Assembly: GCA_900766745.1 (NCBI GenBank)
Contig: CAAFWR010000096.1
Coordinates: 1-10,053 of the forward strand
Direction of reading: 5' to 3'
From: Methanobacteriaceae archaeon
GTDB taxonomy: Archaea > Methanobacteriota > Methanobacteria > Methanobacteriales > Methanobacteriaceae
DNA length: 10,053 nucleotides
Part shown: piece by piece, positions 1,129-4,772 of the stretch
Position numbering within the stretch: position 1 is the first letter of the stretch
Layout: every line of letters starts with the position of its first letter
Program-made: the position numbers and the translations under genes
Notes under the pieces: model-generated
The model's database searches: none
What the model saw: the letters and a program-made list of their open reading frames with translations, nothing else
What the model was told of the DNA's origin: nothing

Positions 1129-1437
1129 TTAGTCCGAAACCATAACCAATTCGCCGGTGTATGGATCCTTGTAAACTTTTCCTACTTCACTATAACCGCT
1201 ATCTTCCATACCTCCAGAATTGCTCATATTTTGAGATAAGACTTCACCTGTTGAAACATCTTCAGAAGATTGTGAGCTATCCTGAATCAATTCTGGATTT
1301 GCAGACAACGCCATTATCGCAAATATTAAAAATCCTAATGCTAAAACAAGCATAGCATCAGAAAGGTTTGCCATGCCTGACATTGGATCCTCTTCAGAAT
1401 CATTATTTATTCTTCTTTTTTTTCTAAGCATGTTCAT
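1129..1437 (-). CDS. DUF2149-type, ExbD/TolR-like small membrane protein
   Basis: 102 aa from ATG at 1437 (a TTG at 1440 and another ATG at 1431 are also in frame). Layout in the 103-residue numbering from the TTG: basic cytosolic N-terminus rich in Lys/Arg (5-10), one membrane helix (about 29-47), a Ser/Glu-rich linker, and a C-terminal GKVYKDPYTGELVMV that matches my recollection of the DUF2149 family. The segment NLSDAMLVLALGFLIF aligns with the ExbD helix (FIDVMLVLLIIFMV in E. coli), placing Asp28 on the essential ion-carrying Asp25 of ExbD. The protein lacks the folded periplasmic domain of ExbD. It probably forms the stator or ion-path partner of the ExbB-like protein encoded 5 nt upstream. 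Family naming is from memory; the Asp alignment is by eye. Confidence 0.85.
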   Translation of the reverse strand: MNMLRKKRRINNDSEEDPMSGMANLSDAMLVLALGFLIFAIMALSANPELIQDSSQSSEDVSTGEVLSQNMSNSGGMEDSGYSEVGKVYKDPYTGELVMVSD

Positions 1438-1442
1438 CAACT

Positions 1443-2081
1443 TTATTTATTTAATGATTCGAGTTCTGCCTCAACTAAGGTTTCCACATCTATTAAGTCA
1501 CTTTCATACCATTGTTTTCTGAATTTAGAAACAAGAAAGGCTACAGCACCACATGCCAAACCGGTAACGGTTGTATCAAATGCAATTGTTAAAGACTCTG
1601 CAAGAACCATAATATCTCCAGAACCTAATGCAGCAAGTCCAGGACCTAATGGAATCAAAGTTCCTAAAAGACCTAAAATAGGACCTAATCTTGTTATTAT
1701 ATCTGTCTTATTAGTGCTTTTAATCATTTTTGTTTCAGCTTCTGAGATTAATTCGGTAGCCAGTGCTTTTCTAGCTTCCGGACCAATATCTGAATTTTGT
1801 GCAATTCTTATAAGAATATCCTTTTGATAATTGAATAATTTGCTTTCATTTACATAATCTTCAATCTGTTTGGGGTTGCTAGCTAATGAAATTTTACGCA
1901 TAAGTTCTTCTAATTCCTTGCTGGAAACTGGTTTTCTTGAAATTTTTTCATTAATCAATCCACCTAAACAGAGAATAACTACAATAACAAATATTACAAG
2001 CAATATAATTACTGGAGTTAAAAGACTTTCAGAAATCACATGTATTAAAGAAGACAATGTTTCTGTTCCTTGAATAATCAT
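1443..2081 (-). CDS. MotA/TolQ/ExbB-type proton channel protein
   Basis: 212-aa inner-membrane channel subunit, similar in size to ExbB (244 aa) and TolQ (230). Helix 1 is at about 20-43, followed by a cytoplasmic stretch of roughly 85 residues with helical, charged sequence. Helix 2 (131-153) carries the family core GPILGLLGTLIPLG, and helix 3 (162-184) carries TTVTGLACGAVAF. Thr141 and Thr171 align by eye with pore-lining Thr148 and Thr181 of E. coli ExbB. In the family, a pentamer of this subunit surrounds a dimer of the ExbD/MotB partner and converts proton or sodium flow into motion. The partner here is the DUF2149 protein just downstream. The start ATG is well supported by AGAGGT 5 nt upstream, inside the stop codon region of the preceding gene. 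Work performed and ion used are unknown. Confidence 0.92.
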   Translation of the reverse strand: MIIQGTETLSSLIHVISESLLTPVIILLVIFVIVVILCLGGLINEKISRKPVSSKELEELMRKISLASNPKQIEDYVNESKLFNYQKDILIRIAQNSDIGPEARKALATELISEAETKMIKSTNKTDIITRLGPILGLLGTLIPLGPGLAALGSGDIMVLAESLTIAFDTTVTGLACGAVAFLVSKFRKQWYESDLIDVETLVEAELESLNK

Positions 2082-2084
2082 AAA

Positions 2085-2738
2085 CTACCTCTTTTTTAAC
2101 TTTCTATCATTATAATAAAGTCCTATAATTAAAATCACAATAATGGCAATAATAATATAAATCAGCTGATATGTAGGTGTTAAAATTAAAAATGAACTAA
2201 ACATCTCATAATCTAGATTTAATAATGACCAAAATGTTATACCTAAAATAAAAATCAAAACTACTTCAAGTGAAATAAACTCGCCAACAATAACATCAAA
2301 TTCTCTTTTAGCATAATGCAATAAATCAGAAACTGGCCTTAAAACTATCATTATTATAAAAAACAATGCACATAAAAGACTAGATATGTATAAGTCTGCA
2401 CCTTCCTGCGAAGAAAGTAAAAAAATAGTTATTAAGAAAATAGCTATTGTTAAAACGTATATTCGATTGAAATAATTTTCAGTTTTTGAATTGATGTAAT
2501 TTAAAATAAATAGGATTATGGCTATTATAATGAATAACCAACCTAAATTATCACTTAATGGAAAATTTAGATTGAAACTATCTGAAAAGAATGTTATTAT
2601 CAATATTACCACTGCAAGACCAATTGAAAGTAGAGCATATCTGTCTTTTGATAAATTTAAATCAGAAGAATAAAGCCCAATGTTTCCTGCAAATAATAAT
2701 ACAATAATTAATAAATATGCTCCAAATAAATCAAACAT
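2085..2738 (-). CDS. Seven-helix membrane protein of unknown function, first gene of the ExbB-like operon
   Basis: 217 aa, dominated by Ile, Leu, Phe and Val, with about seven membrane helices near residues 6-24, 34-53, 65-83, 92-109, 116-134, 149-172 and 189-209, and a basic C-terminal tail (DRKLKKR). The longest charged stretch between helices, about 138-148 (LLHYAKREFDV), lies before helix 6. Helix 6 holds a Glu (about 158) that would be costly in lipid and might be functional. I do not recognise a family. It ends 3 nt before the ExbB-like ATG and shares its ribosome binding site, so it very likely belongs to the same complex, for example as a permease or scaffold. It is not an ExbB or ExbD paralogue. 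Start: ATG at 2738, with only a weak GAG upstream and a good box A farther up. Confidence 0.85.
   Translation of the reverse strand: MFDLFGAYLLIIVLLFAGNIGLYSSDLNLSKDRYALLSIGLAVVILIITFFSDSFNLNFPLSDNLGWLFIIIAIILFILNYINSKTENYFNRIYVLTIAIFLITIFLLSSQEGADLYISSLLCALFFIIMIVLRPVSDLLHYAKREFDVIVGEFISLEVVLIFILGITFWSLLNLDYEMFSSFLILTPTYQLIYIIIAIIVILIIGLYYNDRKLKKR
2087..2092 (-). promoter_or_regulatory. Ribosome binding site of the exbB-like gene, overlapping the upstream stop codon
   Basis: AGAGGT (2092-2087) precedes the ATG at 2081 with 5 nt between them. Its T is the first base of the TAG stop (2087-2085) of the seven-helix protein gene. This overlap favours translational coupling and fixed stoichiometry of the two membrane proteins. 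Confidence 0.65.
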
Positions 2739-2807: not shown

Positions 2808-2848
2808 TTTTTTTATAAAAAAAGAAAAAAGAAGTTAAATTCTTTTTT
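2808..2848 (-). terminator. T-rich terminator after the anchored surface protein gene
   Basis: AAAAAAGAA (2825-2833) and TTCTTTTTT (2840-2848) form a 9-bp A/T stem around the stop codon. On the minus strand the following bases are CTTCTTTTTTCTTTTTTT, a strong U-tract, then a T7-AT-A7 palindrome (2808-2823). It should end the surface-protein transcript before the ExbB operon promoter, so the two units are probably transcribed separately. Confidence 0.5.
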
Positions 2849-4676
2849 TAGAATCTAACATGTCTTTAATGTCTTCACGATAATAAGCACCAATTACAAT
2901 AAGGATAAATAAAATAATAGCACTTATACCTGCAATTTTAACAAAGTCTTCATCAACCGTAATTGATTTGGATACAGATTGAGATTCAGCTGAACTCTGA
3001 GAAGTCTCACCACCAGAACCAGATTCTTGCTGATTTGTACTTATGTCACTAGATGTAGAAGCAATACTGCTTAATAAATCATCAAGATTTCCTATATTAT
3101 TGGTATTTCCTCCATCGTTTCCATTTTCAGTGCTGTTAGTATTGGAATTAGAAGGATTCTCTGCTGTATTAGGATTTGTTGGATTGGTTGGTTTTTCCGG
3201 TTCATATGGAACATAATCTTTTAAAGTAATACTGACAGGAGGCCCTGAAGTTCTTATAACAACATTTCCATCAGCATTGGAAACATGAACTATAGCATTT
3301 CCATTTTTAATTTGAACAGCCTGAAATGTTTTACCGCCATCAAATGAAACGCTTACAGTTGTAGATGGTAATCTGGAAGCTTGATTGCCCCCATTTCCTA
3401 TAACCAATTCCAAAGTTCCAGAACCTGTTTGTTTTATAGAAAGTCCATATTCTGGCATTTGAATCTTTGCACAAACACTTGAAAATGCTCTATCATCAGA
3501 ACCTGCCCAGTTACTTCCGAATTTATGATAATCATATGAACTTTCACTAGCTAGCATGTTCATATGCCCATTACCAACAACTACATTATCTTCAATTGTT
3601 GCATCTTCGCCATAATTGGTTTTTTTGTAGTCACTTCCGATATTAATACCATTTTCTTTATTATTTTCAACATTATTATATCTGATAACTAATCCATCTG
3701 CTTTACAATTAAGGAAAATACCATTCTGATTGTTATTGATAGCATTGCCTTCAATTGTACTATATTCGCCGGATTTTTGAAGATTTATACCCCATTCACT
3801 ACTTCCTGTAATGGTATTGTTGATAATTTTTATATTATTATTTCCTGCATCAAAATAGATACCGTTTTTATTGGTGTCTAAAGTATTGTTGAATATATAT
3901 AAATTTGATGCACCTTTAATGTGAATACCATTGTTGGCAGCTTTTGAAATTGTATTTCCTTCAATCTGACAATCCCATACATTATCCAAGACAATACCAT
4001 CTTTACAATTTAAAATGGTGTTTTCTGATATTGTTACCTTGTTTGCGATATTGCTGACTTTAATTCCAGCTGATCCTCCAACTAATTTCAGACCTGAAAC
4101 TTTACTGCCACTTGCACCATTTCCAGATATTAAAATAACCGGATTATTGTTAATGCCGTTTAATGTAGTGCCACACCAGCTAAGCAACTTTAACTGATTA
4201 CTTACTGTTAAATGGATTCCATCATAAGATTTTCCAATGAATTCCAATGTTGAGCCTTTAGCTGCTGTATCGACGATATTTTGTATTTCATCATTAGTCG
4301 CTCCTTCAGGAATGAATATTGTGTTAGAATCTCTCACAACTAACTTATTTGTATTTTTTAAATCCTCGAAAGTAGTTAAAATAGTATAATTTCCTGGATT
4401 TAAATTAATTTGAAGTTTTGCTATACCATTGCTATCAGTTGTTCTTGTATAGTTAACTGAATTAATGGTAAATACAACTTTCTCATTAGCCATTGGAGTA
4501 TTATTTTGAGTTAAAGAAGCTTCAAAATAATGGCCTTTGTTATTAACATAGAAATCAGATGTATCTAAAGCTACGTCATCAGTATTTTGGATTGCAGTAA
4601 CATTATCATCTGCAAAAGCTGAATTTAAGCTAAGAAAAATAATAATTATCGATAGGCAGAGTAATTTTTTATTGAT
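2835..4676 (-). CDS. Membrane-anchored Ig/beta-helix surface protein with apparent ATC start codon
   Basis: The first canonical ATG (4493) would give 552 aa without an export signal. The frame is open 61 codons farther up to ATC at 4676, giving 613 aa. This extension supplies NKKLL, a run of Ile/Leu/Phe, and a clean cleavage site NSAFA|DD near residue 22, plus the first strands of the Ig-like domain (HYFEASLTQNN). Domain order in 613-aa numbering: signal peptide 1-22; Ig-like repeat about 50-105 (TRTTDSNGIAKLQINLNPG); right-handed beta-helix of PbH1/NosD type about 115-365 with repeats such as 'NTI..C.DGI.L'; a beta-rich domain about 400-487; a Pro/Asn/Ser/Thr-rich stalk about 490-575; a C-terminal helix 580-599 and a basic tail ending KKRI. 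It should be anchored in the membrane and project through the wall. Same strand as, and just upstream of, the ExbB operon. Start inferred; coding nature certain. Confidence 0.88.
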   Translation of the reverse strand: MNKKLLCLSIIIIFLSLNSAFADDNVTAIQNTDDVALDTSDFYVNNKGHYFEASLTQNNTPMANEKVVFTINSVNYTRTTDSNGIAKLQINLNPGNYTILTTFEDLKNTNKLVVRDSNTIFIPEGATNDEIQNIVDTAAKGSTLEFIGKSYDGIHLTVSNQLKLLSWCGTTLNGINNNPVILISGNGASGSKVSGLKLVGGSAGIKVSNIANKVTISENTILNCKDGIVLDNVWDCQIEGNTISKAANNGIHIKGASNLYIFNNTLDTNKNGIYFDAGNNNIKIINNTITGSSEWGINLQKSGEYSTIEGNAINNNQNGIFLNCKADGLVIRYNNVENNKENGINIGSDYKKTNYGEDATIEDNVVVGNGHMNMLASESSYDYHKFGSNWAGSDDRAFSSVCAKIQMPEYGLSIKQTGSGTLELVIGNGGNQASRLPSTTVSVSFDGGKTFQAVQIKNGNAIVHVSNADGNVVIRTSGPPVSITLKDYVPYEPEKPTNPTNPNTAENPSNSNTNSTENGNDGGNTNNIGNLDDLLSSIASTSSDISTNQQESGSGGETSQSSAESQSVSKSITVDEDFVKIAGISAIILFILIVIGAYYREDIKDMLDSKKRI

Positions 4677-4690
4677 TTTTTCACCTCCTT
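4674..4690 (-). promoter_or_regulatory. Strong ribosome binding site followed by ATC instead of ATG
   Basis: Minus strand AAGGAGGTGA (4690-4681), then AAAA, then ATC (4676-4674), AAT, AAA, AAA. GGAGG to ATC is 7 nt, ideal spacing. No ATG, GTG or TTG occurs in this frame between here and ATG at 4493, and that ATG has no Shine-Dalgarno. This is the best ribosome binding site in the window. Confidence 0.8.
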
Positions 4691-4732
4691 CGAAGTTTAA
4701 TAAATTAATTTTTAAAATTAATTCTTGAGTAT

Positions 4733-4772
4733 TGATATATCGAGTAGAATATATAAATAATTCGATATATCA
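4733..4772 (-). promoter_or_regulatory. Box A centred in a perfect inverted repeat: promoter/operator of the anchored surface protein
   Basis: TGATATATCGA (4733-4743) and TCGATATATCA (4762-4772) are perfect 11-bp inverted arms separated by 18 bp. The minus-strand box A TTTATATA (4757-4750) sits at the exact centre. The arms' GATATATC cores are themselves palindromes 30 bp apart centre to centre, about three helical turns, so both face the same side. A dimeric regulator bound to both arms would overlap the TBP/TFB site. Predicted transcription start near 4727, leader about 50 nt. Confidence 0.6.

Follow-up and report, generated by a model that had tools for sequence, protein, structure and literature searches.

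The translation start of a surface-protein gene on the minus strand of the window, a stretch of 10,053 nucleotides from a Methanobacteriaceae archaeon, is most likely an AUC codon at positions 4676-4674, judging from the site itself and from its relatives. The best reading of the comparisons reported here is that near-cognate start codons anchored by strong Shine-Dalgarno (SD) sites form a conserved class in these methanogens. Taken whole, the explanation that we favour, an AUC start set by its SD, belonging to this conserved near-cognate class and predicted to damp surface-protein output, is given a probability of about 0.85.

By direct reading of the window, positions 4690-4671 of the minus strand are AAGGAGGTGA AAAAATCAAT, that is, AAGGAGGTGA followed by AAAA ATC AAT AAA AAA. 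The SD GGAGGTGA (4681..4688, minus strand) is perfect and scores -15.9 kcal/mol against what we take to be the anti-SD sequence. Of the five window starts that were measured, no other is as strong, the four ATG genes ranging from -2.8 to -7.2 kcal/mol. Four A (4680-4677) separate it from the ATC (4674..4676, minus strand), whose third base, at 4674, is C. From there, an uninterrupted frame of 613 codons runs to a TAA at 2837-2835. Upstream of the ATC, 31 open codons lead back to a TGA with no ATG, GTG or TTG among them, and the GTG within the SD is out of frame. The first in-frame canonical codon is an ATG at 4491..4493 (minus strand), residue 62, which is the start given by a standard listing of open reading frames. 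An earlier, sequence-only reading had described a perfect SD, four A and an ATC opening a continuous surface-protein frame, with no in-frame ATG, GTG or TTG until 4493; both statements were confirmed. The arrangement goes beyond chance, since its spacer equals the modal SD-to-ATG spacer of the relative G038 (4 nt, 99 of 222 ATG) and since near-cognate codons occupy the same place in all nine readable close relatives (see below).

Two structural features were noted around this site. By prediction, the SD (4681-4693) forms a weak hairpin with the first part of the coding sequence (4649-4664, minus strand), and this hairpin is no better than shuffled sequences (z = -1.09; 30 of 200 shuffles fold equally well). 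In the divergent promoter region upstream lies a perfect 10-base inverted repeat, GATATATCGA / TCGATATATC, at 4734-4743 and 4762-4771, 18 nt apart; no exact copy of it was found among the 273 fetched loci.

A family-alignment search of 138 genomes of the family returned 10 matches at E <= 1e-85. Nine were readable at the 5′ end, and the tenth (G158) was left out because its contig begins within the gene. The codon placed 4 nt past the SD was ATA in three relatives (L077, L078, L079), ATT in one (L041, the same gene as L209) and CTG in five (L080, L081, L082, L083 and L261, the last being the 5′ piece of a gene divided between two contigs of G134); it was never ATG. The SDs of L078 and L079 have one mismatch. 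In seven of the nine, no canonical codon occurs from the upstream in-frame stop to the near-cognate codon, the exceptions being L079 (GTG nine codons upstream) and L082 (ATGs 5 and 6 codons upstream). As in genes of the infC and sigR type, a non-canonical codon at the SD-specified start is conserved across species, and neither the window (ATC) nor any of these nine relatives has AUG, GUG or UUG there. Comparison of orthologous start regions was the check suggested together with the sequence-only reading, and its first proposal, ATC as a rare initiation codon, is supported by the outcome.

In the public proteins P0003 (98%) and P0004 (79%), which the gene caller read through, Ile stands at the start position. 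The public model P0007 shares 99.7% identity with L077, one of the ATA loci, and its first codon is a GTG that falls within the signal peptide; in this one checked case, automatic annotation missed the signal peptide as had been anticipated. Among the entries available as protein models only, the first residue of P0005 and of P0006 already lies within the first domain, P0009 and P0010 open with MKK where the start aligns, and P0012 opens with MKILNKK, which would fit a GTG inside the SD. Some relatives (P0009, P0010, P0012) may therefore use canonical starts. Among more distant genes adjoining an ExbB gene, ATC was found in two (L054, L070), and in four others (L058, L059, L068, L069) an ATG follows a weak SD (-1.8 to -4.0 kcal/mol).

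The single chromosome of G038 (1,853,160 bases) was scanned by scoring SD strength at the 5′ edges of open frames. Energy scoring was adopted because exact SD words miss the family gene of G038, whose SD reads GGGGGTGA. Where the SD was at least 3 kcal/mol better than that of any canonical start, 17 near-cognate and 15 other sense codons were found, for a ratio of 0.13 to 1 expected from codon usage (binomial p about 1e-8); the control of 15 omitted codons adjacent to a near-cognate, and raising it to 30 gives a binomial p of 1e-5. In a stricter scan, near-cognates were expected at 11.6% of non-canonical sites and found at 6 of 12 (p 0.0012); the count was 7 of 15 for spacers of 3-5, and 16 of 54 when two mismatches were allowed (p 0.0003). 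Of the six near-cognates of the stricter scan, at least three (an AAG, an ATT and an ATA) may be due to chance. Among the 17 candidates are six genes for long proteins whose N-termini resemble signal peptides, and the gene of the transcription factor TFB; of the other ten, we believe few to be credible. At four minus-strand positions of G038 (1081987, 1087764, 748988, 842453), further genes for long secreted proteins were noted in which the best SD precedes an ATT. Nothing odd was seen in the initiator tRNA of this genome, in which 15 kb of sequence is masked: two CAU tRNAs are labelled Met.

Two unrelated families show the same arrangement. A 1607-residue gene of G038, at 1098825, encodes an exported CobN/Mg-chelatase-like protein (PF02514, 605 bits). 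Its first 400 residues were searched against 26 genomes, of which 23 matched, and 20 loci were fetched (L241-L260). In all 20 of these proteins of about 1600 residues, the codon past the SD is not ATG: ACG was found in 8, ATT in 6, ATC in 5 and ACA in 1 (L253). Seven of the loci come from genomes that we assign, by size and kinship, to the Methanothermobacter type. A five-base spacer and an in-frame GTG within the SD are present in L250, L251 and L260, an ATG two codons later in L249 and L253, and a canonical codon further upstream of the SD in L243, L244, L246, L248 and L251.

For TFB, 41 genomes were searched, 39 matched and 30 loci were fetched. The G038 protein has both the zinc ribbon and the TFIIB repeats (PF08271 + PF00382). 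Of the 20 Methanobrevibacter-type loci (L211-L230), 19 have ACG past the SD and one has ATT. Eight of these 20 genes have no ATG, GTG or TTG from the upstream stop to the zinc ribbon; for five of the eight the genome has a second TFB-like match, and for three the match is the only one. The surface genes have more perfect SDs than TFB, whose site in G038 scores -12.2 kcal/mol. The zinc ribbon is missing from two public calls, P0293 and P0324, whose sequence opens with MGPEWRAFD (protein models only). In the ten TFB loci of the Methanothermobacter type, ATGs lie upstream and the near-cognate pattern is absent. It is because the unrelated CobN-like family and TFB share the SD and near-cognate arrangement with the surface gene that we speak of a conserved class; the genomes being related, these locus counts are not independent.

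The codons at these sites, AUA, AUC, AUU, CUG and ACG, are one base off AUG. AAG and AGG, the weakest of the near-cognates, were absent at the start sites of the window, CobN-like and TFB families. What is conserved is the identity of the codon, and not the amino acid. Leu is written CTG in 5 of 5 window-family sites, and Thr is written ACG in 19 of 19 TFB loci and 8 of 9 CobN-like loci; in G038, CTG makes up 6.7% of Leu codons and ACG 1.3% of Thr codons. On these grounds we regard the codons as start codons.

Among the alternatives, the one that survives best accepts that the near-cognates are used, and holds that they regulate nothing, a very strong SD tolerating the neutral decay of ATG to AUH, CUG or ACG. 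SD strength speaks for it: in both surface families, the near-cognate genes have as their SD either GGAGGTGA itself or a version of it with one mismatch, and in G038 three near-cognate genes score -15.0 to -15.9 kcal/mol, a strength of -14 kcal/mol being attained by just 1 of 1542 canonical candidates. So does a paralogous group of surface proteins of ~700 residues (L085-L105, 19 loci counted, two further loci in this range being other proteins), in which ATG stands 3 nt past the SD in 16 of 19, one has no clear SD, and two have ACG 4 nt past the SD, sporadically among ATG genes with the same SD. Drift, however, should often revert to ATG, and non-ATG codons were found in 20 of 20 CobN-like and 20 of 20 Methanobrevibacter-type TFB loci; furthermore, TFB SDs are not maximal. 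We regard neutral decay as rather doubtful.

Initiation might instead take place at a canonical codon that is out of frame or upstream, such as the GTG in the SD, and reach the frame by frameshift or coupling. A related clade, marked by a long acidic insert and present in 9 of 60 genomes, bears on this. In favour of it, in four of the nine loci of this clade (L201-L204), ATT lies at a 5-nt spacer with an in-frame GTG inside the SD, which makes them ambiguous, and a two-codon AUG open reading frame (ATG TAT stop) overlaps the ATT. The other five (L200, L205-L208) have ATT or ATC at 4 nt and count for the near-cognate reading that we favour, three of these clear loci (L206-L208) also having an ATG or TTG 13-16 codons upstream. 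Against this explanation, the GTG in the window SD is out of frame, and in L077, L078 and L080 the interval from the upstream stop to the near-cognate codon holds just 4-5 codons, with no canonical one among them. We consider it very improbable.

Translation from the ATG at 4493, the first canonical in-frame codon, would yield a protein without signal peptide, and its merit can be judged on the product (P0002) of the surface-protein gene (2835..4676, minus strand, 613 codons plus stop). The N-terminus, INKKLLCLSIIIIFLSLNSAFA|DD, is signal-peptide-like by eye, with a predicted cleavage after NSAFA (residue 22; 4611..4676, minus strand). An AlphaFold model of P0002 (mean pLDDT 78.5) shows, in order, a helix (residues 3-19), a compact beta domain (35-114), a beta-helix (~119-375) and another helix (576-598). 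The compact domain (4335..4574, minus strand) is presumed to be Ig-like; the label comes from many matches to proteins with Ig repeats, which span about 7-20% of the query, and the Pfam search gave no Ig match in it. The right-handed beta-helix (3552..4322, minus strand) was recognised by Pfam (PF05048, 95.5 bits; PF13229, 89.4 bits) as well as by the model and a fold search. The last helix, in a conserved tail, would be the C-terminal membrane anchor (2883..2951, minus strand). Initiation at 4493 would delete residues 1-61, that is, the signal peptide and predicted strands 35-38, 42-44 and 50-57, and keep the C-terminal helix; the sequence-only reading had foreseen exactly this loss of export signal and part of a domain with retention of the anchor. 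The truncated start falls between two strands of the compact domain, no SD-like run precedes the ATG, and the signal peptide kept by the nine readable relatives would be lost. The structure model and the relatives together rule out this start, to which we leave only a very slight probability.

The weakest alternative, a mutated or misread ATG with the gene switched off in this strain, had been the second proposal of the sequence-only reading, and is ruled out, as nearly as can be said, by the other near-cognates at the same site in nine of nine readable close relatives, by the Ile of P0003 and P0004 and by a frame intact across 613 codons.

Identification of P0002 as the NosD copper maturation protein (TIGR04247) was tried and rejected, with 52.7 bits for a cut-off of 300; only the beta-helix domain PF05048 passes (95.5 against 23.6). 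The fold search returned beta-helix enzymes and tailspikes with TM-scores <=0.56, which gives no function. Methanobrevibacter genomes encode many adhesin-like proteins, which are large, lie at the surface and carry domains for anchoring to the cell, and surface proteins are a class considered for vaccines against rumen methanogens, according to the passages seen of PMC2812497, which do not take up start codons. P0002 resembles them in being, by prediction, a large anchored surface protein, its beta-helix and ExbB neighbourhood coming from the present analysis.

Near-cognate start codons are already known. In bacteria, the ATT or ATC start of infC, encoding IF3, is kept in several species and often misannotated, and in Streptomyces, the GTC start of sigR, first gene of the sigR-rsrA operon, is repressed by IF3 and misannotated in streptomycete genomes, as described in the part of PMC5472188 available to us. 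The window gene shares with infC a non-canonical AUH start; it differs in being an archaeal surface-protein gene, and in that the archaeal factor aIF1 is encoded with an ATG in related genomes. Like sigR, it is not a translation factor gene, and TFB is likewise a transcription initiation factor; here, however, the codons are AUH, CUG and ACG, several unrelated gene families are concerned, the organisms are archaeal and the case is known from sequence. For archaea, the passages of PMC7531240 and PMC6237735 at hand name AUG, GUG and UUG as start codons and do not mention conserved AUH, CUG or ACG starts; they report that aIF1 destabilises complexes on non-AUG mRNA. SD-led initiation is common to both situations, and the AUH, CUG and ACG codons would be the methanogen feature. 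Near-cognate starts in Methanobacteriales appeared in none of the titles and abstract openings among the matches listed in the open-access literature. What seems new is an archaeal, multi-gene, conserved set.

If true, this means that AUH, CUG and ACG starts are conserved in archaea, including on the gene of the general transcription factor TFB, and that public methanogen gene models wrongly leave surface proteins without their signal peptides and, in some cases, TFB without its zinc ribbon. Proof-reading of the start codon in archaea would also become testable on natural genes.

The following course of events can be proposed for the window gene. The SD would hold the small subunit so as to place AUC in the P site, where initiator Met-tRNA (anticodon CAU) would pair with two of the three bases, and the product would begin with Met, be exported through its signal peptide and be held by the C-terminal helix. 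With an imperfect start, initiation should be slower, with a greater need for the SD and for the proof-reading factors aIF1/aIF2. From the bacterial infC and sigR cases and from aIF1 biochemistry, damped, stringency-sensitive initiation is predicted at these codons, and a limit on expression set by the window codon, comparable to that of AUU on infC, is plausible. The use that we prefer for it is that the surface protein would be made in limited amount relative to the downstream ExbB-type genes. A near-cognate start on the aIF1 gene itself, which would allow self-control, was looked for in the 10 readable loci of 12 fetched, and all 10 have ATG; an autocontrol loop was thus not found. To our knowledge, the archaeal initiation machinery has no IF3. 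We suggest, tentatively and as something less probable than its contrary, that surface-protein genes and TFB form a translational regulon of Methanobacteriaceae in which strong SDs and near-cognates would let initiation stringency (aIF1/aIF2, Met-tRNAi supply) set their synthesis jointly, as an archaeal counterpart of IF3-type start-codon control.

Downstream of the surface gene, on the same strand, follow a multi-pass membrane protein (2085..2738), which is a conserved neighbour, a MotA/TolQ/ExbB-type proton-channel protein (1443..2081; PF01618, 38.4 bits, cut-off 22.9) and a DUF2149 protein (1129..1440; PF09919, 45.8 bits, cut-off 27.1), so that the neighbourhood is of the MotA/TolQ/ExbB kind. 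A T-rich run at 2817-2834, directly past the stop of the surface gene, is possibly an archaeal terminator ahead of these three genes, which may or may not share a transcript with the surface gene. In one of the loci fetched (L022, G002:C21:16601-17212), the ExbB-type gene carries an in-frame TGA.
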